DNA from: Longitalea arenae
GTDB taxonomy: Bacteria; Bacteroidota; Bacteroidia; Chitinophagales; Chitinophagaceae
DNA: 64,000 nucleotides
Assembly: GCF_016924755.1 (NCBI RefSeq)
Contig: NZ_JAFFJX010000012.1
Location: 1-64,000 of the forward strand
Direction of reading: 5' to 3'
The position numbers were made by a program, and so were the translations under genes. Shown piece by piece: positions 17,393-63,489 of this stretch. Each line of letters starts with the position of its first letter. Position 1 is the first letter of the stretch. The notes beneath the pieces were generated by a model. It saw nothing but the letters and a program-made list of their open reading frames with translations, did no database searches and was not told the DNA's origin.

Positions 17393-17615
17393 GGTTGTGG
17401 TTTGGTTGGGGTTTGGTTGTGGTAATATCAGGTTAACCTTTTCTTTACCCCCCGGGTAATAAAAAGGAAATAAAAAGATAAAGGCAACCAAACCCTGATA
17501 TTGCCGGGACCAGAAGAAAAGGTAAGCGGGAGGTAAAGAAGGGGTAAAGAAAAGTAACCAATACCTGGGGAATAGGTAAACAAGAGGTAAAGAATAGGTA
17601 AACAAGAGGTAACCA
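17393..17615. repeat. Degenerate 11-bp word array (GGTAAAnAAGA) with inverted arms
   Basis: From 17521 the sequence is a run of 11-base words beginning GGTAA: 17521, 17532, 17543, then after a 32-base interruption 17575, 17586, 17597 and 17608. The last part also reads as a 22-bp tandem repeat (17571-17592, 17593-17614, 20 of 22 identical). Upstream (17393-17480) are inverted counterparts: GGTTTGGTTG, GGTAATATCAGG and TTTTCTTTACC each have a complementary copy further right, but in the same order, so they cannot all pair in one nested hairpin. Together with the 7-bp array at 17719 this fills the 385-base gap between convergent genes. Confidence 0.75.
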
Positions 17616-17718
17616 CGGTTCAAAAGCGAAAAGCTTACAAAATTGTAAATCTGATGGTTGCGACGCATAAACAAGAGAGGCAACCAGGAGCTGAAAAAAG
17701 CCTGAGCGCCTTTTAACT

Positions 17719-17752
17719 GCCAAATGCGAACTGTGAACTGCGACTGCGAACT
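17719..17752. repeat. 7-bp word array next to the DUF4834 stop codon
   Basis: Words GCCAAAT, GCGAACT, GTGAACT, GCGACT, GCGAACT follow one another, and the array ends one base before the stop codon (17754-17756, minus strand) of the DUF4834 gene. The same word family occurs next to the adk stop at 54015-54042. Confidence 0.7.
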
Positions 17753-17753
17753 A

Positions 17754-18011
17754 TTATTCCTTTACTTCTTCAAAATCAATATATTCACCTGATTTCGGAG
17801 TTGGCGCGGTTGAGCCGTTGCCGGAAGATGGCCGGTTGGTGCTGCCGTTCTGTTGAACCGGGTCCTGCTGTTGCTGTTGCTGCCGCTGGAACTCCTTTAT
17901 CTGACGGCGAACCCGCCACGACATTTTGATTACAGGCACGAGGAAGTTAACTACAAACTTGTATAGGAAGATGGCAAGAAAGATATAGAACAGAATGCGG
18001 AATATGCTCAT
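17754..18011 (-). CDS. DUF4834 family membrane protein
   Basis: An 85-residue protein: one N-terminal membrane helix (about residues 2-27), a basic stretch (SWRVRRQIKEFQ), a poly-Gln linker, a low-complexity Ser/Gly/Asn region and an acidic tail ending YIDFEEVKE. This layout matches the small Bacteroidota-specific DUF4834 family, whose function is unknown to me. It is divergent from the rimP operon, and the short-word array at 17719-17752 touches its stop codon. Confidence 0.75.
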   Translation of the reverse strand: MSIFRILFYIFLAIFLYKFVVNFLVPVIKMSWRVRRQIKEFQRQQQQQQDPVQQNGSTNRPSSGNGSTAPTPKSGEYIDFEEVKE

Positions 18012-18221
18012 ATTACAAAAACTAAAGGTACAATTACAGCACCTAACAAATTGTTAAGGTGGCTGAATGAAAAGTAATTGTCGGCCGTCCTGGCAAAACT
18101 ATGTCAAATCAACAAGTATAGTATACTGAAAGTTCATGACAGGCAATTTTCAGAATTTTTGCCCATTAATTGACAGCCGTCACATATTCATTACTGGTTT
18201 ATCAAAATTAACAACCAGTAT

Positions 18222-18254
18222 TTTGGAAGTAATTATCTATTTACCTTACCTTTG
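18222..18254 (+). promoter_or_regulatory. Promoter of the rimP-nusA-infB operon
   Basis: TTG (18222-18224) is followed after 22 bases by TACCTTTG (18247-18254), a full match to the Bacteroidota -33/-7 consensus. The expected start is near 18261, leaving a leader of about 57 bases that holds the hairpin at 18276-18298. Confidence 0.75.
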
Positions 18255-18275
18255 CCAAGGCAAAAGAAGATTAGA

Positions 18276-18298
18276 AAGGGAACGGAAATCGTTCCCTT
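18276..18298 (+). promoter_or_regulatory. Leader hairpin before rimP (possible attenuator)
   Basis: AAGGGAACG (18276-18284) pairs perfectly with CGTTCCCTT (18290-18298) over a 5-base loop and is followed by the T-rich CTTTATTT. It lies between the promoter and the rimP start, in the untranslated leader. The shape is that of a weak intrinsic terminator, so the operon, which encodes NusA itself, may be regulated by attenuation here. Confidence 0.6.
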
Positions 18299-18317
18299 CT
18301 TTATTTCCCATAAGGAC

Positions 18318-18782
18318 ATGGAAACACCAGTACAGGCAATTGAAAAAATGGTACAGGATATGCTGGCCAATGATCCGGCATACTTCCTGGTAGAGATCAA
18401 AGTAAAACCCACCAATAATATAAAGCTTTTTTTGGATGGTGACCAGGGTTTGACTATAGAGAAGTGTATCTCCTGGAACCGGGCTTTATACAAGAAGATC
18501 GAAGAAGAAAATCTATTCCCTAATGGAGACTTTTCGCTTGAAGTATCCTCTCCCGGCGTTGATGAACCTTTGAAATTGTTACGGCAGTATAAGAAGAATG
18601 TAGGCCGAACAGTGGAGGTCATCCTAAAAGATGGCATTAAAATTACCGGTAAAATGATCGAGGTAGGCGAAGAAACCATTACTGTAGAAGAAACAAGAGG
18701 AAAAAATAAAAAGAAAGAGGTGATAACGCACCAAATTCAATTAGATCAAATAAAATCAACAACAATTCAAACCGTATTTTAA
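18318..18782 (+). CDS. rimP: Ribosome maturation factor RimP
   Basis: A 154-residue protein that assists 30S subunit assembly. The N-terminal RimP domain has the typical FSLEVSSPGVDEPLK motif (about 77-92), followed by a small SH3-like C-terminal domain ending in a beta-rich segment (EETRGKNKKKEV ... IKSTTIQTVF). A longer open frame begins at 18252, inside the leader hairpin; the ATG at 18318 is preferred because AAGGA precedes it and METPVQAIEKMVQ is the usual start. It is the first gene of the conserved rimP-nusA-infB operon. Confidence 0.95.
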   Translation: METPVQAIEKMVQDMLANDPAYFLVEIKVKPTNNIKLFLDGDQGLTIEKCISWNRALYKKIEEENLFPNGDFSLEVSSPGVDEPLKLLRQYKKNVGRTVEVILKDGIKITGKMIEVGEETITVEETRGKNKKKEVITHQIQLDQIKSTTIQTVF

Positions 18783-18826
18783 TTGATCTCCGGCGGGTAA
18801 CCGTTGGGGGAAAAAATTGTTAGTAT

Positions 18827-20074
18827 ATGGCAAGCATAAACTTGATAGAGGCCTTCGCAGACTTTAAGGAAGCAGAAAATATTGATCGCCCGACCATGAT
18901 GAAAGTGGTAGAAGATGTTTTCAAAACCCTGCTGCGTAAAAAATATGGCAGTGACGAGAATTTTGACGTAATTGTGAATGCAGAAAAAGGTGACCTGGAA
19001 ATTATGCGCCGCCGGACGATTGTTGAAGACGGAACCGTAATGGATCCCCTGGCCGAAATCGCTTATAGCGATGCCATTAAAATTGAACCTGACTACGAAA
19101 TTGGCGAAGATCTGTATGAGGAAGTGAATATCCTCGATTTTGGCCGCCGCGCCATCCTGGCAGCAAAACAAACCCTCGCCAGCCGTATCAGCGATCTGAA
19201 AAAGAACGTGTTGGTGAAAAAATATGGCGACCGGATCGGTGAAATTATCAGTGCAGAAGTGTACCAGGTATGGAAAAAAGAAATTTTATTGCTCGATGAA
19301 GAAGGGAATGAGTTAATATTGCCTAAGTCTGAGCAAATTCCGCAGGACTATTTCAAGAAAGGTGAAAATATCCGCGCCGTTGTTAAAAAAGTAGAATTAA
19401 AAAACAATTCTCCGGTCATTATTTTATCCCGTACCTCTCCCTCTTTCCTTGCAAAACTGCTTGAAATTGAGGTGCCTGAAATATTTGATGGTTTAATTGT
19501 TATTAAGAAAATAGTTAGAGAGCCAGGCGAAAGGGCCAAAGTAGCGGTAGAGTCGTATGACGACCGTATTGACCCTGTTGGCGCTTGCGTTGGTATGAAA
19601 GGTAGCCGTATCCACGGGATCGTACGGGAACTGAAAAATGAAAATATCGATGTTATAAACTGGACAAACAACGTCCAGCTGTTGATCCAACGGTCATTAA
19701 CACCGGCCAAGATCACCACAATGGAGCTTGATAATGATAAAAAGCAGGCCAATGTTTACCTCAAGCCCGACCAGGTGTCGCTGGCAATTGGTAAAAAAGG
19801 CGTCAATATTAAGCTGGCACAGGAATTAACAGGATTTAGCATCGACGTTTATCGCGATACAGAAGGCGAACCCCAGGAATTCGATATCGATCTGGAAGAA
19901 TTCAGCGATGAAATTGAAACCTGGATCATTGATGAACTTAAACGCGTTGGTTGCGATACCGCCCGCAGTGTACTTGACCTCACTGCCGAAGAGCTGGAAA
20001 GAAGAACCGACCTGGAAAGAGAGACCATCAATGATGTACGCCGCATCCTGAATGAAGAATTTGAAAAAGGATAG
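18827..20074 (+). CDS. nusA: Transcription termination/antitermination factor NusA
   Basis: A 415-residue NusA. Order: the N-terminal RNA-polymerase-binding domain (1 to about 125), an S1 domain (about 130-200, GEIISAEVYQVWKKEILL), and two KH domains (about 230-345) including IDPVGACVGMKGSRIHGIV and VSLAIGKKGVNIKLAQELTG. The C-terminus ends with an acidic region and a short helix-hairpin-helix (VLDLTAEELERRTDLE). The AR2 repeats of E. coli are absent, as usual outside gammaproteobacteria. Second gene of the operon, 44 bases after rimP. Confidence 0.97.
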   Translation: MASINLIEAFADFKEAENIDRPTMMKVVEDVFKTLLRKKYGSDENFDVIVNAEKGDLEIMRRRTIVEDGTVMDPLAEIAYSDAIKIEPDYEIGEDLYEEVNILDFGRRAILAAKQTLASRISDLKKNVLVKKYGDRIGEIISAEVYQVWKKEILLLDEEGNELILPKSEQIPQDYFKKGENIRAVVKKVELKNNSPVIILSRTSPSFLAKLLEIEVPEIFDGLIVIKKIVREPGERAKVAVESYDDRIDPVGACVGMKGSRIHGIVRELKNENIDVINWTNNVQLLIQRSLTPAKITTMELDNDKKQANVYLKPDQVSLAIGKKGVNIKLAQELTGFSIDVYRDTEGEPQEFDIDLEEFSDEIETWIIDELKRVGCDTARSVLDLTAEELERRTDLERETINDVRRILNEEFEKG

Positions 20075-20127
20075 GCAAAACCGCAGGTCAAATGGGTCAT
20101 TGGTCTGTAAGTTACTAATCAGATATA

Positions 20128-20247
20128 ACTTATATGACTAGTCTGACTGAATTGACCAGGAGAAGCAAAGACCGTCAGGAAGTTGAAAAGGCTAAAAAGT
20201 CAGGTATGACTTATATGACTAATTTGACTTATGTGACCAGTTTGACT
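20128..20247. repeat. 9-bp word array within the nusA-infB spacer
   Basis: Words ACTTATATG, ACTAATTTG, ACTTATGTG, ACCAGTTTG, ACT run without gaps from 20209 to 20247. A second copy at 20128-20163 reads ACTTATATG, ACTAGTCTG, ACTGAATTG, ACCAGGAGA. The first 32 bases of the two copies agree at 27 positions. Both are in the same orientation inside an operon, so the array is transcribed. Confidence 0.75.
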
Positions 20248-20309
20248 TTTTCGGAGTAATTTGCTTATCCAAACAGCGAACAAAACAAAAAATTGTCTTA
20301 CAATAACGA

Positions 20310-23300
20310 ATGGCAGAAACAACAACACTTAGATTAATGGCCGCAGCCAAAGAGTTCAATATCGGCAAGGAAACGCTGGTAGACTTTTTGGTAGGAAAGG
20401 GATTTAGCAAAGACGATCTCAAACCCACGTCAAAATTGACGGAGGAAATGTATCGTGCTTTGCAACAGGAATTCCAGAGTGATAAAGTGGCCAAGTTAAA
20501 AAGCGACCAGATAGATCTGCCGAAGGGAAGCCTGGAAGCGAAGAAGAAGAAGGAAGACGATGCTGCGGCTGTTAAAAAAGAGGTGGTTAAAAAACAGGAG
20601 CCAGCTCCGGTTGTAGAAGAGAAAAAAGAAGAAAAGGTAGAGAAAGTTGAAAAAACCGAGAAAGTTGAAAAGGTTGAAAAACCTGAAGAGCTAATACCGG
20701 AAGTTGTGCAGGAAGCGCCTGTGGTTGCCGAAAAAATCGAAACTCCGCCTGTAGAAGAGCGGAAAGAAGTGGTAGAAGAACCCAAGCAAGAGGAGAAACA
20801 GCCTGAGATTACCAAGGTGGAAGCACCCGGAATAGAAGGGCCCAAAGTACTTGACAAGATCGATCTGTCTGCAATAGATTCTTCAACAAGGCCAAAGAAA
20901 ACGCCTGCTGTTGCAAAGAAAGAGGAGCCGCCGGTAAAGGCAAAGGAAGAAACGCCACAACCGGTTACTGAAGAAAAGGCATCAACGCCAATAGAAGTGC
21001 AGGAGCCGAAAGAAGAACAGCCTGCCACTGCTCCTACGCCTGTAGTTACCGCTGAGGAAAAAGTAGAAAAGCCAAAAGAAGAAGTGGCGCAACCTCAGCA
21101 GCAACAACCTGCCAAACGGGTAGTTGTTGAAAAGAAAAAAGAACAGGAGCCGGTAAAGGAAGTGCCGAAAGAAAAAGAACCGGAAAAGGAAGAAGCACTG
21201 CCGCCGGTTATTGAAAATATTAAAGCCGATAAACTTACGGGACCAAAAATTCTGGGCAAAATTGAATTACCGGTTGGCGACGAAGCCCGCACCAAACCGA
21301 AGCCCAACGAGGAAAAGCGGAAGCGCAAGCGCATTCCCATTGAAAAGAAGGACCAGCAGCAGCAAACTGCTCAGGAGCGGGCTCAACATCTTTTCAAGAA
21401 GCGAGAACCGGGTCAGCACGGAGGACAACAAGGTGGTCACCACGGCGGCCAGCATGGACAGGGCCAACAGGGTGGTCAGCACCGGCAAGGTGGTGGTCAT
21501 GGTCAGCAACAGGGCGGTGGTTTCAGACGGGATAACCGTCCCAATAACCGCCCGGGACAAAACCGCCACGTGTCGCGCGAGCCTAAAGAGATCAACGAAA
21601 AAGAGATCCAGGATAAAATTCGGGAAACACAAGCCAAGCTGTCTGGCAACAAAGGCGGAAAGAGCATTAAAGCAAAACGCCGCCATGAAAAACGCCAGGG
21701 CCTGGCCGAACAGGGCGGCATGGAAGGGCAGGACAACAAACTGCAGGTCACTGAGTTTATCAGCGTAAGCGAACTGGCCAACCTGATGGATGTAAGCTTT
21801 GCCGAAGTGATCAGCAAGTGTATGAGCCTTGGTCTCATGGTGTCTATAAACCAGCGGCTGGATGCTGAAGTAATTGAGCTGGTGGCCGGTGAATTTGGCT
21901 TTGAAGCCGAATTCATTGATATGGAAAAGCAGATGGAAATGGAAGAGGAAGTTGAAGAGGATAATGAAGAAGATCTGCAGCACCGCGCGCCCATTGTTAC
22001 CATCATGGGTCACGTAGACCACGGTAAAACATCTTTGCTCGACTATATCCGCAGTGCGAATGTGGTAGCCGGTGAGGCAGGTGGTATCACCCAGCACATC
22101 GGTGCATACGAAGTAACACTTCCCAATGGTAAAAAGATCAGTTTCCTCGATACACCCGGTCACGAAGCGTTTACCGCCATGCGTGCCCGTGGTGCCAAAG
22201 TAACCGACATTGCGGTTATTGTGGTTGCTGCAGACGATGCGGTGATGCCACAAACCAAGGAAGCCATCAGCCACGCACAGGCTGCAGGCGTACCAATGAT
22301 CTTCGCCATTAACAAGATAGATAAAGAAGGCGCCAACCCGCAAAAGATATACGAACAGCTGGCCGGTATGAACCTGCTCGTTGAAGAATGGGGCGGTAAA
22401 TACCAAAGCCAGGAATTGAGTGCCAAGAAAGGATTGAACGTTGACAAACTCCTGGAAAAGATCCTGCTCGAAGCCGAATTATTGGAGCTGAAAGCGAATC
22501 CAGACCGCGAAGCAACAGGCACCATCATCGAAGCTACGCTCGACAAAGGCCGTGGTTATGTAGCTACAGTGCTTGTTCAGAACGGAACCCTGAGACATGG
22601 CGACCTGGTAGTATCGGGTCAGTTCTTTGGCCGCGTGAAAGCAATGTTCAACGAACGTAACAAACGTGTTGATGAAGCGCCTCCTTCTACCCCGGTACTT
22701 ATCCTGGGCTTAAACGGAGCCCCACAGGCCGGTGAGAAATTCAGGGTCTATGAAGATGAAGCAGAAGCCAAAGAAGTGGCTAACCGCCGTGCACAGATCC
22801 TGCGTGAACAAGGTATCAGAACGAAGAAACACATCACGCTCGATGAAATTGGCCGTCGTTTGGCACTGGGTAATTTCAAACAATTGAACCTGATCCTGAA
22901 AGGCGACGTGGATGGTTCGGTAGAGGCCCTGAGCGATTCATTACAAAAATTGTCAACCGAAGAGATCGTTGTATCGGTCGTACATAAAGCCGTAGGTGCT
23001 ATCAGTGAAAGTGACGTAATGCTGGCTACCGCATCAGATGCCATCATCGTAGGTTTTAACGTACGTCCTTCCACCCAGGCAAACCGCCTGGCTGAGAATG
23101 AAGGCGTGGAAATCAAACTGTACTCTATCATCTATAACGCCATCGAAGAAGTGAAGAGTGCGATGGAGGGTATGTTGGAGCCGAAGATCACTGAAAAGAT
23201 CGTGGCCAATGTGGAAGTTCGCAACGTATTCAAATTCGATAAAGCTACCGTGGCCGGTTGCTATGTGCTCGACGGAAAAATTCAACGTAACTCAAAGATC

Positions 23301-23504
23301 CGTGTTATCAGGGATGGTATCGTTGAATATCCTAAGGGTGAAGGGCAAAGCGCTGAGCTGCAGTCTTTGAAACGCTTTAAAGACGACGTTAAGGAAGTAC
23401 CTTCAGGTATGGAGTGTGGTTTAACCGTTAAGAACTTTGCTGATATCAAAGTAGGCGATATTATCGAAGTATTCGAACTGGAAGAAGTAAAAAGAACATT
23501 ATAA
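20310..23504 (+). CDS. infB: Translation initiation factor IF-2
   Basis: A 1064-residue IF-2. An N-terminal IF2_N helix bundle (1-55) is followed by a very long low-complexity linker (about 60-460): first Lys/Glu/Val/Pro-rich, then Gly/Gln/His-rich ([12 protein letters not shown] type). A second IF2_N-like segment precedes the G domain, with [16 protein letters not shown] and NKIDKEG; then domains II-IV with [12 protein letters not shown]. The enzyme delivers initiator tRNA to the 30S subunit. The linker makes it longer than E. coli IF-2 (890), a common feature in Bacteroidota. The strongly biased linker produces several long spurious frames on the other strand. Confidence 0.97.
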
Positions 23505-23580
23505 GTTACAGGTTACCGGTTTCAGGTTTCAGGGAGATCGCATAAGCTAACCCCTGCAACCTGCGGCTTGTAACCTGTAC
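23501..23580. repeat. 7-bp word inverted array starting at the infB stop codon
   Basis: Left arm: ATAAGTT, ACAGGTT, ACCGGTT, TCAGGTT, TCAGGGA (23501-23535), the first word containing the infB stop TAA. Right arm: CCTGCAA, CCTGCGG, CTTGTAA, CCTGTAC (23553-23580). The arms are imperfect reverse complements and could form a long hairpin after infB. The same word family is at 60187-60284. Confidence 0.78.
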
Positions 23581-23717
23581 CATTTTAAGGCATATGCAAT
23601 CCCGGTATGGGTTTAGCTTTCCTGACCGGCACCAAACTTTTGTTAAATAAGGGCTACAACTCTCCAAATGCTATGGTAACCAGTAAATTTGAGCCGATCC
23701 CTTATAATTTTTTTCAG

Positions 23718-25091
23718 ATGAAGTCTGTATTTATACTTGTAACAGCCCTTTGTTTAGGCACCCTTGCAATGGGCCAGGCAACACGTAAAGTGGTAGCCGA
23801 TAAAATCGTAGGAATTGTGGGTGATAAGATCATTTTACGGTCTGATGTGTACAACGATATCCTCGATCGCCAGCGTCGCGGTGAGCCGATTCCCGAAAAT
23901 GCCGACTGTTCAATCATGGAGCAGATCCTTACCCTGAAAGCATTGGTGCTGCAGGCCGAGAAGGACTCTATCCAGGTGGGTGATGATGAAATTGACGCCC
24001 TGCTCGATAACCAGATCCGCGGCTTTGTTCAAATGTACGGTTCCAAGGAAGCCCTGGAAGAGATTGCCGGCCGTACCGTGTACCAGATCAAAGAAGATTT
24101 TCGCCAGACTTTCAAAGAAAGAAAACTTGCCGAGCGTATGCGTGATAAGATCGTAGAAAGCATCAAGATCACACCGCAGGAAGTAAAAGAGTATTTTTTG
24201 AAGAAAGATCAGAATAACTTGCCGTTTTATGAGTCTAACCTCGTGATCGGCGAAATTGTATCCTACCCAAAAGCAAGCCGGGAGCTGGATCTGCTGACCA
24301 TCGAAGAGTTGAATGATTTCAAAAAGCAGGTAGAATCCGGCACACAGAAGTTCGAGACCCTTGCGCGTTTATATACCGATGATCCCGGCAGCAAGGAAAA
24401 CGGCGGACAATATTCCATCAACCGTACGGAGAAGACCTGGGACCCTGCCTTTCTCAACAACGCATTCCGGCTTAAAGAAGGACAGATCTCCCCGGTATTC
24501 AAATCTAAATTCGGATACCACATCATTCAAATGGTAAGCCGTGCGGGTGACGATGCCATTGTTCGGCATATTTTGCGTATTCCGAAGATCACCGATGAAG
24601 AAGTAAATGAATCTATAAAAAAATTGGACTCTGTTCGCGCTAAATTAATTTCCGGTACCATCGAGTTCGGCGAAGCCGTGGCCAAATACAGCGACGATGA
24701 GAATGCAAAATTTACCGGCGGTATAAAGCAGGGACAAAATGGTTCTACCTTTCTGGAAGTAGGTCAGCTGGAGAAAGACCTGGTTGAATTACTGGCAACC
24801 ACCAAACTTAAACCAGGCGAGTTTTCAAAACCAACGCCATTCACTGATGAAAGAGGTAAAAAAGGCGTGCGGATCGTTTATTTGAAAACACGCACTGAGC
24901 CTCACCGGGAGAATATTAAAGATGATTATGACCGTTTGGCTAAAGAAGCAATGGAATTGAAAAAGCAACGGGCACTGGAAAGCTGGTTTGCTGCCAAGAT
25001 CCCTTCCTATTATATTATGATTGATAACGATTTTAAAAATTGCGGCACGCTTAGTAAATGGATGCAATATGCATCAGCAGGCAGCAAGTAA
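23718..25091 (+). CDS. SurA-like periplasmic peptidyl-prolyl isomerase
   Basis: A 457-residue exported chaperone/foldase. The frame is open from 23607, but the ATG at 23718 places a perfect signal peptide (MKSVFILVTALCLGTLAMGQ) at the N-terminus. A SurA-like N-domain (IVGIVGDKIILRSDVYNDIL) is followed by two parvulin-type regions (about 175-295 with FETLARLYTDDPGSKENGGQ and SKFGYHIIQMVSR; about 300-415 with FGEAVAKYSDDENAKFTGG). It is expected to assist outer-membrane protein folding. A second, longer parvulin protein is encoded at 38787-40733. A strong terminator follows at 25121. Confidence 0.9.
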   Translation: MKSVFILVTALCLGTLAMGQATRKVVADKIVGIVGDKIILRSDVYNDILDRQRRGEPIPENADCSIMEQILTLKALVLQAEKDSIQVGDDEIDALLDNQIRGFVQMYGSKEALEEIAGRTVYQIKEDFRQTFKERKLAERMRDKIVESIKITPQEVKEYFLKKDQNNLPFYESNLVIGEIVSYPKASRELDLLTIEELNDFKKQVESGTQKFETLARLYTDDPGSKENGGQYSINRTEKTWDPAFLNNAFRLKEGQISPVFKSKFGYHIIQMVSRAGDDAIVRHILRIPKITDEEVNESIKKLDSVRAKLISGTIEFGEAVAKYSDDENAKFTGGIKQGQNGSTFLEVGQLEKDLVELLATTKLKPGEFSKPTPFTDERGKKGVRIVYLKTRTEPHRENIKDDYDRLAKEAMELKKQRALESWFAAKIPSYYIMIDNDFKNCGTLSKWMQYASAGSK

Positions 25092-45408: not shown

Positions 45409-46914
45409 GTGAAATTACTGTCGCCTGCCATATCATCTTTAGCCCGCATGCGCTTATGGCGCATCGAGGGATGGAAAAATAATCCTGCAGATGCCCAACG
45501 GGAAGTGTTGCAGGACCTGGTCACCTCTGCCCAATACACAGAGTTTGGCAGAAAATATAATTTTTCCTCGCTGTTCAACGTAAAGACCTTTAAACAAACG
45601 GTTCCTGTTCATGAATATGAAGACCTGCAGCCATATATTCAGCGCATTATGCAGGGAGAACAGAACCTGCTGTGGAATACACCGGTGTACTGGTTTGCCA
45701 AAAGCAGTGGCACTACGAGCGATAAAAGCAAGTTCATTCCCGTAACCGATGAAAGCCTCGAAGACTGCCATTACAAGGCTGCCAAGGACGTGCTTACATT
45801 ATATTACCAGTTCAATCCCGATTCTGACCTCTTAACCGGCAAAGGCTTGGTCATCGGCGGAAGTCATACCATCAATCCACTGAATGCTGATGCGCAGTAC
45901 GGTGACCTGAGTGCTGTATTGTTACAAAATTCCCCTTTTTGGGGGCATTGGCTGCGGGTGCCCGATCTGAGCATTGCCCTGATGGATGAATGGGAAAGCA
46001 AAATTGAAAAACTGGCCAACAGTACGATTAAAGAGAATGTCACCTCTATTTCCGGTGTGCCCACCTGGACTTTGGTGCTCTTCCGGCGGATCCTGGAGCT
46101 GACCGGCAAAAGCACCATGGCTGAAGTATGGCCGCACCTGGAATTATATATGCATGGCGGCGTATCATTTACTCCCTATAAAGAACAGTTCGAGAAAATA
46201 ATCGGCAAGCCTATTCATTACCTGGAAATGTATAATGCCAGCGAAGGTTTTTTTGCAGCACAGGACATTCCGGGTGAAGAAGGTATGCTGCTGTTCACTG
46301 ATCATGGCATTTTTATGGAATTCATGCCATTGGAAGAGTATGGAAAACCGCATCCCCATACCATCGGTTTACAAGAAGTGGAGCTGGGCAAAAATTACGC
46401 GATGATCATAAGCACCAATGGTGGCCTATGGCGGTATTTATTGGGCGATACCGTTCAGTTTACGTCATTACATCCATTCAAGATCAAGGTGAGCGGGCGC
46501 GTAAAGCATTTTATCAATGCATTCGGTGAAGAAGTGATCGTTGATAATACCGACAAAGCCATAGCAGTAGCCAGTGAAAGAACAGGCGCCATTGTGAATG
46601 ATTATACCGCTGCGCCGGTGTACTTCAGCGACAATGGCAATGGCGGTCATGAATGGTTGATAGAGTTTGAAAAAGAGCCCGCCGATCTGAACCATTTCGC
46701 GCATGAGCTTGACAACGCATTGAAAAGTGTGAACAGCGATTACGAAGCCAAACGCCATAAAGATATTGCGCTTTGCAAACCATTGATCAGGCCCCTGTCG
46801 AAAGGGGTATTCACCAACTGGCTAAAAAGTAAAGGTAAACTGGGCGGCCAGCATAAGGTACCCCGCCTGAGCAACGACCGGAAATATATTGAAGAAATAC
46901 TTTCTTTCCATTGA
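45409..46914 (+). CDS. GH3-type acyl-adenylating amidosynthetase (auxin-responsive GH3 family)
   Basis: A 501-residue ANL-superfamily enzyme of the GH3 family, named after plant hormone-amino acid synthetases. Visible are the P-loop-like FAKSSGTTSDKSKFIPVTDESL (about 97-118), the nucleotide motif YNASEGFFAAQD and the C-terminal hinge GRVKHFINAFGEEVI. Start is GTG at 45409. Bacterial members are found in many Bacteroidota; their acyl and amino substrates are mostly unknown. No biosynthetic cluster surrounds it. A 7-bp word array begins at the base after its stop codon. Confidence 0.88.
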   Translation: MKLLSPAISSLARMRLWRIEGWKNNPADAQREVLQDLVTSAQYTEFGRKYNFSSLFNVKTFKQTVPVHEYEDLQPYIQRIMQGEQNLLWNTPVYWFAKSSGTTSDKSKFIPVTDESLEDCHYKAAKDVLTLYYQFNPDSDLLTGKGLVIGGSHTINPLNADAQYGDLSAVLLQNSPFWGHWLRVPDLSIALMDEWESKIEKLANSTIKENVTSISGVPTWTLVLFRRILELTGKSTMAEVWPHLELYMHGGVSFTPYKEQFEKIIGKPIHYLEMYNASEGFFAAQDIPGEEGMLLFTDHGIFMEFMPLEEYGKPHPHTIGLQEVELGKNYAMIISTNGGLWRYLLGDTVQFTSLHPFKIKVSGRVKHFINAFGEEVIVDNTDKAIAVASERTGAIVNDYTAAPVYFSDNGNGGHEWLIEFEKEPADLNHFAHELDNALKSVNSDYEAKRHKDIALCKPLIRPLSKGVFTNWLKSKGKLGGQHKVPRLSNDRKYIEEILSFH

Positions 46915-47107
46915 TTGAGGTCTGAAGTCGGAGGTTTGAACCCCCAAGCTCAGAGATGCGAAGATTTCCTATTCGGGTCTTAAAATTATTGGTTACCTGG
47001 GGCATGGTACTTCGTACGTCTTTCTTCCGGCTTTTGAGGTGCGATCTCCATCTTCTCACTTCTGACTCCTGGCTCCATGCCTCCCCTCCGTTTTCCGGCT
47101 TCATTTC
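46915..47107. repeat. 7-bp word inverted arrays filling the gap before fabG
   Basis: Left arm begins at the first base after the TGA of the upstream gene: TTGAGGT, CTGAAGT, CGGAGGT, TTGAACC (46915-46942). Right arm: CTTCTCA, CTTCTGA, CTCCTGG, CTCCATG, CCTCCCC, TCCGTTT, TCCGGCT, TCATTTC (47052-47107), roughly complementary words. The array ends 3 bases before the fabG -7 box. Confidence 0.72.
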
Positions 47108-54014: not shown

Positions 54015-54042
54015 AGAACTATAAACTGTGAACTTTGAACTG
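54015..54042. repeat. 7-bp word array next to the adk stop codon
   Basis: Words AGAACTA, TAAACTG, TGAACTT, TGAACTG; the array ends one base before the adk stop codon (54044-54046, minus strand). It is the same word family and the same one-base spacing as at 17719-17752. Confidence 0.68.
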
Positions 54043-54043: not shown

Positions 54044-54625
54044 TTAAGCCGGTTGTTTGGCTTCAATCTTAGCTACCAGCAGCCGGAAGATGTCGTCGAT
54101 GCTGCCTTCACCCTTGATCTTGGCCACTTTTCCGAATTTAGCATAGTAATCAGCCACGATAGCTGTTTTGTTATGGTACTCCTGCAGGCGTTTGCGGATA
54201 ACATTCTCATCGCGGTCGTCGCTGCGGGAAGAAGTTAAACCTCTGTTCAACAGCCGGGCTACCAGCTCTTCTTCACTAACTTCCAGCGCCAGCACCAGGC
54301 TTATTTCACTGCCTTTGCCGGCGAGTAAATTATCCAGCGCTTCTGCCTGGGCTTCTGTTCTCGGGAAGCCGTCGAACAGAAAGCCTTTGGCATTTGGGTT
54401 TGCGTCCAGCGCAGAACCGATCATGCCTATCACTACTTCATCAGGCACCAGTTGGCCTTTGTCAATAAAAGCCTTTGCTTCCAGTCCAAGCTGGCTGGCA
54501 TTGGCTATTTCCTTACGCAACAAATCGCCGGTCGACAGGTGGATCCAACCAAATTTTTCGATCAGTTTTTCCGATTGAGTTCCTTTTCCGCTGCCGGGAG
54601 GTCCGAATAATATAAGATTAAACAT
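54044..54625 (-). CDS. adk: Adenylate kinase
   Basis: A 193-residue short-form adenylate kinase that interconverts ATP + AMP and 2 ADP. P-loop GPPGSGKGTQ (8-17), AMP-site motifs STGDLLR and GFPRTEAQA, and the Arg-rich LID edge (ARLLNRGLTSSRSDDRDENV) are clear; the LID is the short form without the zinc-finger insert. It has its own promoter (TATATTTG at 54652-54659). Confidence 0.97.
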   Translation of the reverse strand: MFNLILFGPPGSGKGTQSEKLIEKFGWIHLSTGDLLRKEIANASQLGLEAKAFIDKGQLVPDEVVIGMIGSALDANPNAKGFLFDGFPRTEAQAEALDNLLAGKGSEISLVLALEVSEEELVARLLNRGLTSSRSDDRDENVIRKRLQEYHNKTAIVADYYAKFGKVAKIKGEGSIDDIFRLLVAKIEAKQPA

Positions 54626-57196: not shown

Positions 57197-57259
57197 ATAT
57201 TGTTAAGATGCCCGATATTCAAAGAAACATACCGAAATTCACGTAATAAATTTTGAAGA

Positions 57260-58091: not shown

Positions 58092-59018
58092 GTGCTAAGA
58101 GAAGATCGGTATAGGAAAAGGATTGGTCTCGGCCAGGAGGGAAATTCCCTGGTCCTCTTAATTGGTGTCATTGCCATCATCTTCTGTATTTTCAAATTCA
58201 TCTGGCTGGTATATAAGATTGCCGATAAAGACCTATCGGCCTACGACCAGAATATCTTCAACTGGTTGGTGATACCCGGCGATTTTGAAAAAATGATGAC
58301 CCGCCCGTGGACCCTGCTGTCGTTCATGTTCATGCATAGCAATCCCTGGGAAATGGTTGGGAATTTGTTATGGCTATGGGCATTTGGTTATATTTTCCAG
58401 GATGTTACCGGAAACCGGAAACTGATCCCGCTTTTTATCTACGGAAGCGTGGGAGCCGGCATCTTCTTTACCTTTTGTTATAATCTTATTCCCAAGCTGG
58501 TGCCCATGGGGCCGGCCGTTACCCTGGTGGGGGCATCCGCCGGTATTTTGGCCATTGCAGTAGCCGCAACTTCCATGGCGCCCGATTACCGCATTTTTCC
58601 CATGATCAATGGCGGCATCCCGTTATGGATAATGACCGTATTATATTTGATCATTGATTTTGCACTTATAGCGGCTCAAAAAAGCCCGCCCGGTTATTTT
58701 GCACATCTCGCCGGTGGTTTTGTTGGATTTTTGTTTATTTATCAAATGCGCCGGGGGAACGACTGGAGCAACTGGATGAACAATTTCTTTGACTGGCTCG
58801 GCAATCTGTTCAACCCCGACCGGCAGAGTTGGAAGAAGACCGCAAGGACCGACCTGCATTACAATGCACGGGGAACCCAGCCGTACAAAAAAATACCGAA
58901 TATAACCCAAAAGAGGATTGATGAAATATTAGATAAAATCAATCAACAAGGCTATCGTTTTCTCACCGATGAAGAAAAAGATATTCTAAAGCGGGCCGCA
59001 GAAGATGAAGAATTGTAA
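58092..59018 (+). CDS. Second rhomboid protease with C-terminal soluble tail
   Basis: A 308-residue rhomboid. Helices cover about 15-225; the active-site Ser is in LVGASAGILAIAVAA and the His in PGYFAHLAGGFVGFLF, and HSNPWEMVGNLLWLWAFG is the conserved second helix. A C-terminal cytoplasmic region (about 225-308) ends with a helical segment ITQKRIDEILDKINQQGYRF ... LTDEEKDILKRA that recurs in Bacteroidota rhomboids. The frame is open to TTG 58047, but GTG 58092 (VLREDRYRKR) is my preferred start. The EEP gene follows after 8 bases. Confidence 0.88.
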   Translation: MLREDRYRKRIGLGQEGNSLVLLIGVIAIIFCIFKFIWLVYKIADKDLSAYDQNIFNWLVIPGDFEKMMTRPWTLLSFMFMHSNPWEMVGNLLWLWAFGYIFQDVTGNRKLIPLFIYGSVGAGIFFTFCYNLIPKLVPMGPAVTLVGASAGILAIAVAATSMAPDYRIFPMINGGIPLWIMTVLYLIIDFALIAAQKSPPGYFAHLAGGFVGFLFIYQMRRGNDWSNWMNNFFDWLGNLFNPDRQSWKKTARTDLHYNARGTQPYKKIPNITQKRIDEILDKINQQGYRFLTDEEKDILKRAAEDEEL

Positions 59019-59026
59019 TTTTAAAT

Positions 59027-60163
59027 ATGGCCCGGTTTGTTAGAACATTCACAAAGCGGTTATGCATTATATTGAACGTGGTTATCGCCGGTCTGTTCCT
59101 GATAGCCTGCGCCAATGCCTGGCTGCATCCTTCTAAATGGTGGTTCTTTTCTTTGCTTGGACTGGGTTTTCCGGTGCTGCTGATCTTTTTATTTGCCTTC
59201 CTGGTCTTCTGGCTCATCTTTCGCTCAAAATGGGCGCTGTTACCGGCCCTGGTGCTCTTGATCGGCTTCAGTAATATCCGCGTCTTCCTGGGCCTTCATT
59301 TCGCTGCCTCCTTCAAACCCGAAAAAAAAGAGAACGCCATCCGCGTGCTTACCTGGAACGTGCACTGGTTCGATGAGCATAACAGAAAGCTACCCGAACA
59401 CCGCGACTACCGTAAAAAGATGATCGAATTCATCAAAGAACAGCATGCAGATATCCTGTGTTTCCAGGAGTTCCTGGAAATGGGAAAGACCTTCGCCAAC
59501 AGCAATACCAACGCTATTATACAGCTTAATTATCCTTACTATTACCGGGTGATTGATTATGGAGCCGCCAGTGGCGGCCGCTTTCAGGCGGGGGTGGCCA
59601 TATTCTCGCGTTTCCCTATTGTTGATACCCAACGCATACGGTTTCCTGATCCGGCCAAATTGCGGGCTGCTGAAAGCCTGATAGGGGTCGACGTGCTGGT
59701 GAATGGTAAAAAGATCAGGGTGTACACTACCCACCTGCAATCTGTGCTCTTCCAGAAGAATGATTACCGGAATATCGAGATCATAAAATCGGCTGATGAC
59801 AGTATGGTCACCGCCTCCCGTTCCATTATAAAAAAGCTGCGGAATGGCTATGCCTCCCGCGGGTTCCAGGCCGACCTGGTGCGTAATAAACTGGACAGCT
59901 GCCCGTACCCCGAGATCATTTGCGGCGATTTTAATGATGTGCCCAACTCATATACTTATTTTAAAATAAAAGGGAACCGGCAGGACGTCTTTGTGAGAAA
60001 GGGCAGCGGCATTGGCCGCAGTTTTACTGCAGTGTCGCCTACCCTGCGCATTGATTATATCCTGGCCGACAAAGCATTTGACGTACTGCAATACAATCGC
60101 TTCCTGGTGCCTTATTCAGACCACTACCCGGTGGTGGCGGATTTAAAACTGGCTGAGGATTAA
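59027..60163 (+). CDS. Membrane-anchored endonuclease/exonuclease/phosphatase family protein
   Basis: A 378-residue protein with two or three N-terminal membrane helices (about 10-95) and a large EEP (DNase I/sphingomyelinase-like) domain (about 105-375). Metal and catalytic motifs: LTWNVHWFDEH, ILCFQEF (the metal-binding Glu), VYTTHLQSV, ICGDFNDVPNSYTY (catalytic Asp/Asn) and the C-terminal SDHYPVVADL (catalytic His). The substrate may be nucleic acid, phospholipid or phosphoinositide-like; this cannot be decided. Close spacing to the rhomboid gene (8 bases) suggests joint expression. Confidence 0.88.
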   Translation: MARFVRTFTKRLCIILNVVIAGLFLIACANAWLHPSKWWFFSLLGLGFPVLLIFLFAFLVFWLIFRSKWALLPALVLLIGFSNIRVFLGLHFAASFKPEKKENAIRVLTWNVHWFDEHNRKLPEHRDYRKKMIEFIKEQHADILCFQEFLEMGKTFANSNTNAIIQLNYPYYYRVIDYGAASGGRFQAGVAIFSRFPIVDTQRIRFPDPAKLRAAESLIGVDVLVNGKKIRVYTTHLQSVLFQKNDYRNIEIIKSADDSMVTASRSIIKKLRNGYASRGFQADLVRNKLDSCPYPEIICGDFNDVPNSYTYFKIKGNRQDVFVRKGSGIGRSFTAVSPTLRIDYILADKAFDVLQYNRFLVPYSDHYPVVADLKLAED

Positions 60164-60186
60164 AATGTACATGCCGGCCCTGAAGA

Positions 60187-60284
60187 AACAGTTACAGGGT
60201 ACAAGTTGCAAGTTACAGGGAGCCCCCATTGCAGACCTGGAACCTGTAACCTGAAACCTGCAACATCTAACCCGTAACTTTCAA
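60187..60284. repeat. 7-bp word inverted array downstream of the EEP gene
   Basis: Left arm: AACAGTT, ACAGGGT, ACAAGTT, GCAAGTT, ACAGGGA (60187-60221). Right arm: CCTGGAA, CCTGTAA, CCTGAAA, CCTGCAA, CATCTAA, CCCGTAA, CTTTCAA (60236-60284), strictly in 7-base steps. The arms are imperfectly complementary. It is the same word family as the array after infB, 37 kb away. Confidence 0.8.
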
Positions 60285-60379
60285 TATTACAATAATTACT
60301 TTTATATTTGATTCATGATCCATTTCTTCACATCTTCCTGTTGTTGCTGATTCCATTCGCCGTTCTGGCGGGATACATT

Positions 60380-60387
60380 TACTTTTG
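60380..60387 (+). promoter_or_regulatory. -7 box upstream of cysS
   Basis: TACTTTTG, exact TAnnTTTG match, 46 bases before the ATG at 60434. A second box, TATATTTG, lies at 60303-60310. Neither has a clear -33 TTG at the usual distance. Confidence 0.45.
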
Positions 60388-60433
60388 CATTTACCGGCTT
60401 TAATTTAACTATCAGAAAGATTAATGAATTTTT

Positions 60434-61930
60434 ATGAGTGAACTGAAAGTGCTCAACTCCTATACAAGGCAAAAAGAAGTATTCACACCGATCACGCCCG
60501 GCCATGTGGGCCTCTATGTGTGCGGACCTACAGTAAGTGGTGAAAGCCACCTCGGCCATGCGCGGCCGTATGTGACCTTCGATGTGATCTACCGCTACCT
60601 CATGCACCTCGGTTATAAGGTACGCTATGTGCGCAACATCACCGATGCCGGCCATTTTGAAGAAGAAGGAAGGGAAGCCGAAGATAAAATTGCCAAGAAA
60701 GCGATACTCGAGAAACTGGAACCGATGGAGCTGGTTCAAAAATATACCAACCTCTTTCATTGGGGCATGAAACAGCTCAACAACCTGGACCCCAGCATTG
60801 AACCTACCGCCACCGGTCATATCGTTGAGCAGATAGAAATGATCAAAAAGATCATGGAAGAAGGGTATGCATACGAAATGAACGGCTCCGTATATTTCGA
60901 TGTAAAAAAGTATGCGGAAAACTATCCCTACGGTAAACTCAGCGGCCGTGTAATGGACGACCTGTTGGAAACTACCCGCGAGCTGGAAGGACAGGAAGAA
61001 AAGCGGAACAAACAGGACTTTGCTTTATGGAAAGCGGCTCCGCCCGAACACATCATGCGTTGGGTAAGTCCCTGGGGTGAAGGCTTCCCCGGCTGGCATA
61101 TCGAATGCTCGGCGATGAGCAGTAAATACCTGGGCGCGGAGTTCGATATTCATGGGGGTGGTATGGACCTTCAATTCCCGCATCATGAAAGTGAAATTGC
61201 CCAAAGCACCATTTGCAATAAACATGTGCCTGCCCGGTATTGGATCCATAACAACATGATCACCATCAATGGCCGTAAAATGGGTAAAAGCTATAACAAC
61301 GTGATCAAGTTAACGGAACTGTTCAGCGGCGAACATCCCCTGCTTGAAAAAGCCTATAGCGGGCAAACCATTCGTTTCTTTATCCTGCAAACGCATTACC
61401 GCAGTACGCTCGATTTCAGCAATGAAGCATTGCAGGCATCTGAAAAAGGATTGAAGCGGTTATGGGAGGCCTATGAAGTGTTGCAGAAGATAGATATTGC
61501 CGCATTTAAACCAGCTGCCGGTGATGCAGAGCTGGAGAATAAGATAAAGACCTTATTGCTGGAGCTGGACGAATTCATGAACGATGATTTCAACACCGCC
61601 AAAGTGCTGGCGAATATCTTCGAGCTGGTGCCGGTGATCAACTCCATAAAAGATAAACATTTTACGCCCGATGCCATCAGTGCCGATACGATGAAATTGT
61701 TGCAGCAGTATTTTAAACAATACCTGGAAGATATACTCGGCCTGAAAGGTGACATGGAAAAAGAAGATGGCAAGCTGGAAGGGGTGATCGGACTGCTGAT
61801 TGAAATAAGAAAAGAAGCCAAATTGAGAAAAGACTATGCGACCTCAGATAAGATCCGCCAGCAATTGCAGCAGCTGGGTATTTTATTGAAAGATGAAAAA
61901 GACGGCGGCGTAAGTTATTCATTTGCCTAA
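60434..61930 (+). CDS. cysS: Cysteinyl-tRNA synthetase
   Basis: A 498-residue class I synthetase charging tRNA-Cys. The HIGH motif appears as HLGH (within [18 protein letters not shown], about 29-46), the zinc ligands include the first Cys and HIECSAMS plus the HHE of [13 protein letters not shown], and the KMSKS loop reads [10 protein letters not shown] (about 280). The C-terminal DALR-type helical domain ends with [20 protein letters not shown]. Length is typical. Confidence 0.97.
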
Positions 61931-61943
61931 CCCTAACGCATCA

Positions 61944-61984
61944 ATAGAAATGTGCCACACTTTCAAAATGTGGCACATTTCTAT
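61944..61984. terminator. Perfect 16-bp bidirectional terminator
   Basis: Arms 61944-61959 and 61969-61984 are exact reverse complements (first arm starts ATAGAAATGTGCC), with a 9-base loop. It separates the convergent cysS and mnmD-like genes. Confidence 0.82.
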
Positions 61985-62037
61985 CACTGTCTTCAAACTG
62001 CGTGAAACTATAAGTAAGCGATCTTACGGATTTTGTT

Positions 62038-62077
62038 TTCATTAGCACATTGGCAAATTATCGCATCAGCGCATTGC
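62038..62077. repeat. 8-bp word array overlapping the mnmD-like stop codon
   Basis: Words TTCATTAG, CACATTGG, CAAATTAT, CGCATCAG, CGCATTGC. The stop codon of the minus-strand gene (62066-62068) lies inside the fourth word, so the last four codons of that gene are part of the array. The same word family recurs at 63458-63489. Confidence 0.7.
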
Positions 62078-62740
62078 TCGTATCATTTCCCTTTTGCCGG
62101 GCGGTCCCGGAATTTTCTCCACGCTGAAACCCGCTGCTATCATAGCCCGTCGTACATCTCCCTTGCTACAATAGGTTACAAGGATACCATCCGGCGCCAG
62201 CATATTCAGCAATTGCTCAAATACTGTTTTCGTCCATAATTCAGGCTGTGCAGCCGGGGCAAAGGCGTCGTAGAAAATAACATTTACCGGTTCCCCGGGT
62301 GTATAGTCGGCGAGTGCGGTTTTCATCTTTTTAAAAGAGAAGAATTTGGTGAGGGTTTGCGTTGAGTTCCATTCAGCGGAATGCAGCGATTCAAATACCG
62401 GTTGCCACTCCGCCTGCTCCAGCGCCTCACAATAATTCAGTTGTTGAGTTATAGCAGGCTCCAGGGGAAAGGCTTCTATCGTTTCATATAGTACACTTCG
62501 TTCAAGGCGTTTGGCCTCCATGGCCGTCAGCAGGGCATTGAGCCCGGTACCAAAACCCATTTCGAATAGCACGCAGCGGCTGGCAGTTTCATGCCGGCTG
62601 AACCAGTACCGCAAGCCGGCTTCGATAAATACATGCAACGACTCCTGTACAGCACCATGTACCGAATGATAGGTGACCTGCCATTCCGGAATACCAATAG
62701 TATGAGACCCATCCTTTGTAAGGATCAAATTTCGTTGCAT
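62066..62740 (-). CDS. mnmD: MnmD-like tRNA 5-aminomethyl-2-thiouridine methyltransferase
   Basis: A 224-residue Rossmann methyltransferase of the MnmC2/MnmD (DUF752) group, which makes the last methylation of mnm5s2U at the wobble base of some tRNAs. Motifs: LTKDGSHTI and [19 protein letters not shown] at the N-terminus, SAM loop [13 protein letters not shown], the Asp of [15 protein letters not shown] and a final [13 protein letters not shown]. It lacks the FAD oxidase domain of E. coli MnmC. The open frame reaches 62782 but ATG 62740 gives the usual [11 protein letters not shown] start. Divergent from the glycosylase gene. Confidence 0.88.
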
Positions 62741-62828
62741 GAGAACAAAATTAACCGGTAAATTGCAAATGAGCCGGAACAAACGCCATCAAAAGAATCA
62801 GAGGCAAGCCCGGGCAAACAGCAATCAT

Positions 62829-63452
62829 ATGGCCAGCGAATACACCTTACACCTTTCAAAAGATAAAAAACTCAAAAAGCTTATAGAGCAGAACGGTGTT
62901 TTTAAGCTCAGGAAGCAAAAGAATGTATGCACATGGCTTTGTGCATCTATTATGAGCCAGCAGCTCTCAGTGAAAGTGGCCGACGTGATCTATAGACGCT
63001 TCCTGAACCTGTACCAGGGCAGTGAGCCTACACCGGAGCAGATCGTTGCTACCCCGCCGGAAACCCTGCGCAGCATTGGCCTGTCGAACGCCAAGGTAAG
63101 TTATGTGCTGAATGTAGCGCGCTTTACATTGGAACAGGGTATGGACCACCGTAAGCTGCATAAAATGGATGATGAAGAAGTTATTGAGTACTTGACGCAG
63201 ATCAAAGGAGTAGGCCGCTGGACGGTTGAAATGCTGCTGATCTTTGCGCTGAGCCGCGAAGATGTATTTGCTATAGATGATCTTGGTATTCAGAATGCCA
63301 TGATCGCGCTGTATAAACTCGATCGTACCGATAAAAAACAATTTCGCCAAGACATGCTGCGTATCGCTAAAAAATGGAGCCCTTACCGCTCCTATGCATG
63401 TATGTATCTGTGGCGTTATAAAGACAATGCACCCCCCTTAAAGAAAGCATAG
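62829..63452 (+). CDS. AlkA-like DNA-3-methyladenine glycosylase (HhH-GPD)
   Basis: A 207-residue base-excision repair glycosylase. The helix-hairpin-helix is LTQIKGVGRWTVEMLLIFAL (about 119-138) followed by the GPD catalytic Asp in FAIDDLGIQ; CTWLCASIMSQQLSVKVADV is the typical start of the domain. There are no FeS cysteines at the C-terminus, which fits AlkA/MAG-like enzymes that remove alkylated purines. Starts at 62739 or 62769 would add a very basic N-terminal tail (RNKRHQKNQRQARANSN); I prefer ATG 62829 but the tail could be real. Confidence 0.88.
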   Translation: MASEYTLHLSKDKKLKKLIEQNGVFKLRKQKNVCTWLCASIMSQQLSVKVADVIYRRFLNLYQGSEPTPEQIVATPPETLRSIGLSNAKVSYVLNVARFTLEQGMDHRKLHKMDDEEVIEYLTQIKGVGRWTVEMLLIFALSREDVFAIDDLGIQNAMIALYKLDRTDKKQFRQDMLRIAKKWSPYRSYACMYLWRYKDNAPPLKKA

Positions 63453-63457
63453 CCGGA

Positions 63458-63489
63458 TTCATTAGCCCATTAGCCAATTAGCACATTGC
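63458..63489. repeat. 8-bp word array touching the RT stop codon
   Basis: Words TTCATTAG, CCCATTAG, CCAATTAG, CACATTGC in exact 8-base steps. The array begins 5 bases after the stop of the glycosylase gene and ends at the base before the stop codon (63490-63492, minus strand) of the reverse transcriptase. First and last words are shared with the array at 62038-62077. Confidence 0.75.

Follow-up and report, generated by a model that had tools for sequence, protein, structure and literature searches.

The 64,000-nucleotide stretch of Longitalea arenae DNA considered here (contig NZ_JAFFJX010000012.1, positions 1 to 64,000; "the window") carries, behind several of its genes, tandem arrays of very short and imperfect words. 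Arrays of 7- and 8-bp words are a genome-wide class in this organism, while the 9- and 11-bp arrays that accompany them in the window are rarer, local cases. Our leading but tentative reading, to which we give a little less than an even chance, is that the 7- and 8-bp arrays form a genome-wide, fast-turning class of degenerate arrays, of the type of the short tandemly repeated repetitive (STRR) sequences of cyanobacteria, and that they arise by recurrent, polarity-keeping copying behind genes.

The 7.28-Mb assembly of L. arenae (genome G000) was sampled to 864 kb, or 12% of the genome with the window included; a first step of 464 kb provided the lag autocorrelations and the counts at score ≥13. 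Arrays were scanned for with a lag-match score (+1/-1) at periods 7 and 8 and a threshold of 11, with stricter cut-offs of 12 and 13 for other counts. Chance levels were taken from dinucleotide shuffles of the spacers, coding DNA served as a second comparison, and genes were called with a purpose-written hexamer-score script, not a standard annotator. At threshold 11 the scan finds 220 arrays of period 7 or 8 in the 864 kb, spread over 134 of the 539 spacers, a number that by extrapolation would amount to about 1,900 arrays in the genome.

Between genes, in the 464 kb, the match at lag 7 is 0.289 compared with 0.261 in the shuffles (z 17.5), and lags 8 (z 14.1), 14 (z 11.9) and 21 (z 13.0) are likewise raised; lags 9, 10 and 11 have no intergenic excess (lag 9 z 0.0, lag 11 z -0.5), and coding DNA of the same sample has none at lag 7 or 8. 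Lag 6 rises less (z 4.5, and z 9.0 in the 864 kb), yet a single period-6 array was found. The array counts of the 464 kb at score ≥13 have the same shape: 53 of period 7 (0.1 in shuffled sequence, 0 in coding DNA) and 27 of period 8 (0.05 and 0), against 3 of period 9 (0.05 shuffled, 4 coding) and 2 of period 11 (0.05 shuffled, 1 coding). At score ≥12 in the 864 kb, period 7 yields 114 arrays and period 8 yields 79, with 0.6 and 0.2 in shuffles; periods 5, 6, 9, 10, 11 and 12 yield 0, 1, 5, 2, 6 and 1. The 9-bp words recur at a few other loci, and the 11-bp array is common to G000 and its relative G007. The excess over shuffled sequence that the initial annotation of this DNA had expected is thus present for periods 7 and 8; its view that steps of 7, 8, 9 and 11 bp follow one common design stands for the first two and is not supported for the 9- and 11-bp arrays as equal members, as lags 9 and 11 are without excess.

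Nine word families account for 179 of the 220 arrays, leaving 41 unassigned; the nine seed words were picked by the analyst, so that the word tables are partly selected. Examples are GTTRCMR, RATKTGMT, GATTTYGR, AATGGTC, GTTTRTN and AGTTCNC, each in 3 to more than 20 copies per array, and the sharing of words between distant loci that had been noticed within the window extends well beyond it. A word combines nearly invariant positions with others that tolerate two to four bases. Position 1 of RATKTGMT, for instance, is A in 0.60 and G in 0.40 of 215 units, with C and T at 0.00 after rounding, and this is the same in distant arrays. Mismatches cluster in certain columns (mean variance 2.08, compared with 1.18 for random spread; P≤0.05 in 32 of 121 arrays), and sub-families are set by positions that are mostly uniform within an array, such as position 6 of GTTRCMR and position 7 of RATKTGMT. 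Neighbouring units within an array have an identity of 0.785 in GTTRCMR and 0.810 in RATKTGMT, compared with 0.709 and 0.770 between arrays. In the largest families units follow one another almost at random (identity of adjacent units 0.779 vs 0.757 after permutation, and 0.809 vs 0.796), and the two largest show no surplus of identical neighbours (22 vs 28.1, and 23 vs 24.9). Exact triple-word windows, in which long arrays are counted several times, number 604 for GTTRCMR in G000 (8 for the reversed control) and 358 for RATKTGMT (0 for the control); outside the genus there are at most 2 per genome.

The arrays are placed unevenly with respect to genes. Their density is 2.84 per kb in convergent spacers, 1.64 in co-directional and 0.95 in divergent ones. 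With a distance of no more than 5 nt as the measure, 31 of 132 arrays in co-directional spacers are close to the upstream stop codon, where uniform placement in the same spacers would put 11.9, and only 8 are close to the following start; in convergent spacers 27 of 50 arrays are this close to a stop, compared with 12.0 expected. The abutment on stop codons first seen at a few genes is thereby borne out over the 864 kb. The stop codons at the 32 arrays that overlap or touch one comprise 13 TGA, 12 TAG and 7 TAA, compared with 127, 148 and 346 among all 621 called genes; because this usage departs from that of the called genes, the array often seems to provide the gene's stop codon. Several proteins whose stop meets an array have species-specific C-terminal tails.

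Polarity is the other regular feature. The G-rich word reads inward from the nearer gene border in 149 of the 179 family-assigned arrays. Read inward, arrays near stops have more G than C in 69 cases and less in 13, of 85, and arrays near starts in 33 and 4 cases, of 38. A complementary partner (z>3.5) accompanies 37 of 107 arrays examined, the other 70 having none, and among the partnered ones 35 of 37 have the keto-rich (G/T) arm on the left or the amino-rich (A/C) arm on the right. The G-rich strand often enters a spacer from both borders, giving inverted pairs that stand head to head. Shuffling the units of one arm barely alters the pairing score (mean z 0.41, median 0.52, over 93 same-family pairs of 158), and a unit-level match at P≤0.05 was found in 4 of the 93; these within-spacer arm pairs are not mutually independent, and the same holds for the orthologous-spacer pairs counted below. 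The arms are alike mainly as words and nearly independent at the level of units. Little unit-level match also means that the arms are not supported as fold-back copies of each other, and growth of arrays from one end finds no support in an outer-to-inner gradient of unit quality (mean correlation -0.043, t -0.76, 103 arrays).

The sequence just inside the arrays is sometimes recurrent. AATACA stands in 23 of 271 inner flanks, where about 3 are expected from background (at least 4 of the 23 are near-identical copies), and in 3 outer flanks, which are often shorter than the inner ones; in five other species arrays have a core GGCGGCGCAAGAT next to them or between them. These recurrent inner sequences suggest defined units. 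A masked all-against-all comparison of the G000 spacers sorted them into small groups, and no core shared by the spacers with arrays emerged: among the 12 groups listed, one, with CCCGCAGAGCGGGACAAGTTG, has arrays in 4 of 4 members, and the largest, of 11 spacers, has arrays in 1. Arrays belonging to different word families have AATACA or GAATACAG immediately on their inner side, for example at G000 C11:30852 and C34:97715. A dispersed core GGCGGCGCAAGATNAGTTATTAATTT is present in G001, G003, G004, G005 and G006 (e.g., position 117454 of the joined G004 stretch); it has an array of GGCAATG/CGGCAGA type on one side, and several copies also have words of CACTCAC type opposite. A hairpin, GTGCCACACTTTTAAAGTGTGGCAC, is also dispersed; it occurs at 61948-61981 of the window and in other spacers, including at least 4 of the 11 linked spacers (a group with arrays in 1 member), and may represent a type of terminator or a minor family of repeats.

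Ten genomes of the genus, G000 included, were compared, the nearest relative being G007; the other nine are largely collinear with G000 where sampled. Of the 34 window spacers that could be compared in six or more genomes, 22 are free of arrays throughout, while in 5 of them 5 or 6 genomes carry arrays. Words turn over at recurring sites. The end of infB has GTTRCMR in G000, G005 and G006, AGGCANNN in G007 and G003, and a plain stem in G001 and G004. G007 has an array element behind a terminator that G000 has without the element. Triple RATKTGMT is abundant in G000, G007 (215 windows), G002 and G006 and absent from G004, G008 and G009. The sample beyond the genus took 80 kb from each of ten other genomes and added 80 named loci, two of which are same-genus records (L163 and L164) that leave the counts slightly mixed. 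Arrays of other words are patchy by genus, occurring at 28 of the 80 named loci (one of them same-genus), with Pinibacter, Sediminibacterium and Flaviaesturariibacter among them; these 28 loci hold 80 arrays of period 7 or 8, where one shuffle per locus gave 3; arrays of periods 9-12, the four periods combined, number 27. At score 12 the 80-kb samples gave 33 arrays in G018, 15 in G013, 6 in G012, 3 in G017, 6 in G031 (AT-rich), 1 in G023, and none in G011, G015, G010 and G025.

The initial annotation had offered three guesses for such arrays: 3'-end RNA structures, landing arrays for proteins, and products of a copying process. In the RNA explanation the two arms would pair in the transcript and serve as bidirectional terminators or as barriers to 3'-exonucleases, the words being free to change as long as complementarity stays. 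The abutment on stop codons, the convergent bias, the head-to-head arms and the presence of arrays at conserved gene ends despite changed words all agree with it, as do single loci: at the infB end the G007 array ends as a stem with a T-run (G003 is similar but less clear), and the nusA-infB spacer has a predicted hairpin with TTTTT in ten same-genus genomes. Co-directional spacers also fold somewhat more strongly with arrays (median z -1.92, n=60) than without (-1.32, n=174), but convergent spacers fold less strongly with arrays (-2.84, n=28) than without (-3.67, n=29). A hairpin with a T-run 3' of the stop has about the same frequency whether arrays are present or not (0.448 vs 0.486 in convergent, 0.353 vs 0.333 in co-directional spacers, all above shuffles), so that the stem-loop and T-run of an intrinsic terminator is not enriched at the element; 24 of 70 such hairpins in array spacers overlap an array. 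Most arrays examined, moreover, have no complementary partner, and the within-genome unit-shuffle test showed no compensatory change between arms. Because covariation between the arms scarcely goes further than the word, and terminator-like structure is no commoner in array spacers than in others, a general role in RNA structure is not supported, and we consider it unlikely, at roughly one chance in five. A terminator role was accordingly rejected as the common cause, folding being mixed and the hairpins about equally frequent, and kept for single loci such as infB and nusA-infB.

Proteins that bind DNA or RNA and read fixed positions at steps of 7 or 8 nt would explain why positions are sharply fixed, with defined alternatives elsewhere that are the same across distant arrays, and why mismatches are concentrated in columns; about nine words in one genome would, however, require several such proteins, and words are exchanged between close species at the same gene end, with triple RATKTGMT absent from three genomes of the genus; landing arrays seem improbable to us. 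Ordinary replication slippage in unconstrained DNA, which would make the arrays neutral mini-satellites that need no special process, is scarcely less improbable. It suits arrays that lie in apparently dispensable DNA, the near-identical units of some long arrays (GGGCAAT in G004; B 75527-75728) and the partial likeness of neighbouring units, strong in GACCATT. The same words recur at very many loci, mostly in one polarity, however, and the near-random unit order and the lack of excess of identical neighbours in the largest families argue against plain slippage; slippage alone was rejected on that order and on the essential restriction to periods 7 and 8. A further mechanism is template-directed end addition, in which a reverse transcriptase or other polymerase would add G-rich words of 7-8 nt to the 3' ends of intergenic breaks that are then joined head to head. 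The G-rich word reading inward from both sides, arms drawn nearly independently, some loop-less head-to-head joins (B 157131-157246; A 80679-80739) and the recurrent AATACA at the inner edge, some of it in near-identical copies, speak for it; no candidate enzyme or template was found, a genome holds many words, unit quality shows no gradient from outside to inside, and 20 to 120 nt separate the arms in 27 of the 37 partnered arrays. We regard it as very improbable, and the same small likelihood attaches to its bolder form, a telomerase-like bacterial activity with several 7-8-nt templates that would heal intergenic breaks, leave head-to-head interstitial arrays, and be the source of the heptamers of Nostoc and Xanthomonas as well.

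Deposition by one kind of process fits better than RNA pairing or a single binding protein because word, arm and site vary nearly independently while the period is constant and the polarity mostly so, and among the three guesses copying has the best fit. On this reading of recurrent copying, a process would repeatedly deposit arrays in dispensable DNA behind genes with their polarity retained, possibly by insertion of or conversion from arrays of the same family, or by template-directed addition of words to DNA ends. Selection would purge copies that enter genes or promoters, leaving survivors pressed against stop codons, and at some sites the hairpin of an array may serve as a terminator or adjoin one. 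In favour of this reading stand the intergenic excess, the placement at stop codons, the prevailing polarity, the recurrence of words over the whole genome, the exchange of words between sister species (different words in 50 of 106 orthologous spacer pairs that have arrays on both sides), the G007 element behind a terminator shared with G000, and the near-random order of units in the largest families.

Several observations weigh against recurrent copying. Arrays occur in both members of 106 of 1293 orthologous spacer pairs, where 48.9 to 53.8 are expected from orientation and length, and such recurrence in the same spacer would also be expected from function at those sites. In the 106 shared pairs the closest words coincide in 27, are near in 29 and differ in 50, while random words from different genomes are so in 4.5, 13.5 and 82%; same or near words above random expectation mean that part of the sharing of sites is inheritance. 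Neither a target-site duplication, the mark of a MITE or other cut-and-paste element, nor a clean empty site was seen in the 14 filled/empty pairs listed, whose flanks are too diverged. No machinery was identified, as Y1 transposases (PF01797) and reverse transcriptases (PF00078) are also found in genomes where no arrays were seen: Y1 matches occur in all ten genus members and in G011, G010 and G025, whose 80-kb samples have no arrays. In each of the seven families tested, neighbouring units resemble one another to some degree, with z from 0.15 to 2.63 in six and 6.35 (0.822 vs 0.721) in GACCATT, an exception that stems partly from register shifts. The reversed control for GTTRCMR is high in G001 (115 vs 272) and G007 (42 vs 290), probably from another word family that matches the reversed pattern. 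In the wider sample polarity goes the same way but is weaker, with G above C in 113 of 172 arrays, below it in 51 and equal in 8; by source, 25 lean to G and 6 to C. A correlation of arrays with Y1 transposases or reverse transcriptases was also sought and gave no clear pattern.

The arrays are tandem, degenerate 7-bp intergenic words with many dispersed copies of one word, and they belong with the heptameric intergenic repeats, that is with the STRRs, the TAACTGA repeats and the G-rich heptamers. The published relatives are cited here from parts of the respective papers, and their existence speaks against the initial annotation, which knew heptanucleotide repeats from cyanobacteria but no account of them from this group. 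In filamentous cyanobacteria the STRR heptamers are intergenic, hairpin-capable near the 3' end of the upstream gene and of unknown function (PMC2670836), and three STRR words have been mentioned for Calothrix (PMC4692102). Like the present arrays they are 7-bp tandem intergenic words with several words per genome. The arrays described here differ in their hosts, relatives within the Chitinophagaceae, in having 8-bp words as well, in comprising about nine families in one genome, and in their measured excess at stop codons, polarity and replacement of words between sister species.

The G-rich heptamers GGGANTN of Xanthomonas and GGGGA(C/T)T of Nostoc 7120 (Rehm et al. 2015, PMC4692102) are a further published relative. 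In the portion of that article used here they are scarce in coding DNA and between divergent open reading frames (ORFs), sometimes form inverted pairs, and lie on the sense strand near stops, some overlapping them, and on the antisense strand upstream of ORFs (PMC4692102). The period of 7, the fixed and free positions, and the rule for stop codon and strand all recur in Longitalea. Rehm et al. 2015 propose G-quadruplexes (PMC4692102), but GTTRCMR and RATKTGMT follow the same rule here without a GGG run; according to the word tables these two families make up 94 of the 179 assigned arrays, and GGG runs are present in GATTTYGG and GGGCAAT arrays. Rules that many different words obey alike direct attention to the process instead of the word, and they count against a shared origin of the arrays in G-quadruplexes or RNA folding.

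MacGregor 2015 (PMC4679880) has reported TAACTGA direct repeats from Beggiatoaceae, some Cyanobacteria and five Bacteroidetes. These too are intergenic heptamer arrays, patchy across phyla, and have been proposed as regulatory binding sites (PMC4679880); they are of one word and, in BOGUAY, lie mostly just upstream of start codons, whereas the present arrays are of many words and lie mostly behind stops. A survey of exact simple repeats in classes of 4-11 bp gives medians for 7n3 of 0.75 in Bacteroidetes, 1.0 in Chloroflexi and Deferribacteres and 2.0 in Planctomycetes, and of 0 in most phyla, Cyanobacteria included (PMC4060949). The arrays fit the raised 7-mer medians of some phyla; the part of the survey drawn on here is without families, polarity or placement. 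Comparison with repetitive extragenic palindromes and the hairpins built from them (REP/REPIN) finds matches to the general Y1 transposase model (PF01797); on inspection the words are not palindromic. No description of such arrays in the Bacteroidetes, Chitinophaga or Niastella literature was among the matches listed, most subscription journals lying outside the coverage.

Within the window, every one of the nine loci that had drawn attention holds an array when read directly, two 5' arms (46915 and 20123) being discernible by eye only. Behind the gene at 16724-17368 stands the 11-bp array GGTTTGGTTGT (17393..17423, + strand; Tandem Repeats Finder, TRF), which lies outside the 7/8 class and is also present in G007; a second, purine-rich 11-bp array, AGGTAAACAAG (17531-17612), shares its spacer, and G007 has it too. 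An array of the AGTTCNC family at 17715..17752 (- strand, TRF range) ends one base from the stop codon of the gene at 17754-18011; its lag-match core is shorter, 17715-17743, and ends 10 bases short of the stop. The same family recurs at 54017..54041 (- strand, scan), two bases from the stop of the gene at 54044-54625. A 7-bp GTTRCMR array (23499..23533, + strand, scan) begins inside the infB stop codon and is the 5' arm to a complementary, degenerate CTGNAAC arm of the same word (23552..23581, - strand), seen by eye and under the threshold of the scan. At 60190..60220 (+ strand) GTTACAG words form a 5' arm detected at threshold 10, with CTGNAAC words as the 3' arm at 60235..60278 (- strand, scan). 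Degenerate 7-bp GTCTGAA words (46915..46943, + strand, by eye) follow directly upon the stop at 46914 as a 5' arm that in G000 is too degenerate for the scan, with clear homologous arrays at the same place in G007 and G003; the 3' arm consists of ACTTCTG words of the same family (47052..47076, - strand, scan).

Two arrays of the 8-bp RATKTGMT family, both on the - strand and found by the scan, complete this set. One (62040..62074) overlaps the stop of the gene at 62066-62740 and the other (63460..63487) is separated by two bases from the stop codon at which a gene for a retron-type reverse transcriptase ends. The abutment claimed for six loci therefore holds as an overlap at 23.5 and 62.0 kb, at two bases at 54.0 and 63.5 kb, at one base by the TRF range at 17.7 kb, and by eye at 46.9 kb. 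The protein of the gene at 62066-62740 (- strand) has a C-terminal tail that is different in every one of the eight genomes compared; that of G000 ends inside the array. The reverse transcriptase gene occupies 63490-64000 and continues beyond the window on the - strand; its G007 orthologue is matched by PADLOC RT_XIII at 623.8 bits. In 9 of 10 genus members the syntenic contig has RVT_1 matches in frames some 500 aa long, and the gene looks vertically kept for that reason.

The nusA-infB spacer (20075-20309) carries words of 9 bp. By eye, with no TRF row, 9-bp words TTATATGAC TAGTCTGAC TGAATTGAC are found at 20123..20160 (+ strand), and 9-bp TGACTNATN words at 20205..20251 (+ strand; TRF gives a 9/18-bp array, 20205-20248) run into TTTTT at the 3' end of the spacer. 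The 9-bp words are longest in G000 and occur also in G005, G008 and partly G001, with a plain short hairpin in G004. A terminator-like hairpin at or before the invariant TTTTT is predicted in 10 of 10 same-genus genomes and may be an attenuator. A promoter and terminator scan of 20060-24060 gave no excess, and an Rfam search of the window returned two tRNAs only, with no match at the arrays.

An excess of heptamers is unexplained in several phyla, and in the parts of the literature cited here the published groups have each been explained separately, by G-quadruplexes, by binding of a regulator or by hairpins. What appears to be new in Longitalea is the number of families, the 8-bp members, the families that obey the rule without GGG, the near-independence of the arms and the replacement of words at recurring sites. 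It is a single genus that has many words under one set of rules: a period of 7 or 8 bp, abutment on the stop codon and a G-rich strand that mostly reads inward. The origin of a known but unexplained class of bacterial repeats thereby becomes testable, and Longitalea luteola and Niastella yeongjuensis, which are in culture and differ in their words if they are indeed genomes G007 and G009, would provide a direct system in which to find the agent.

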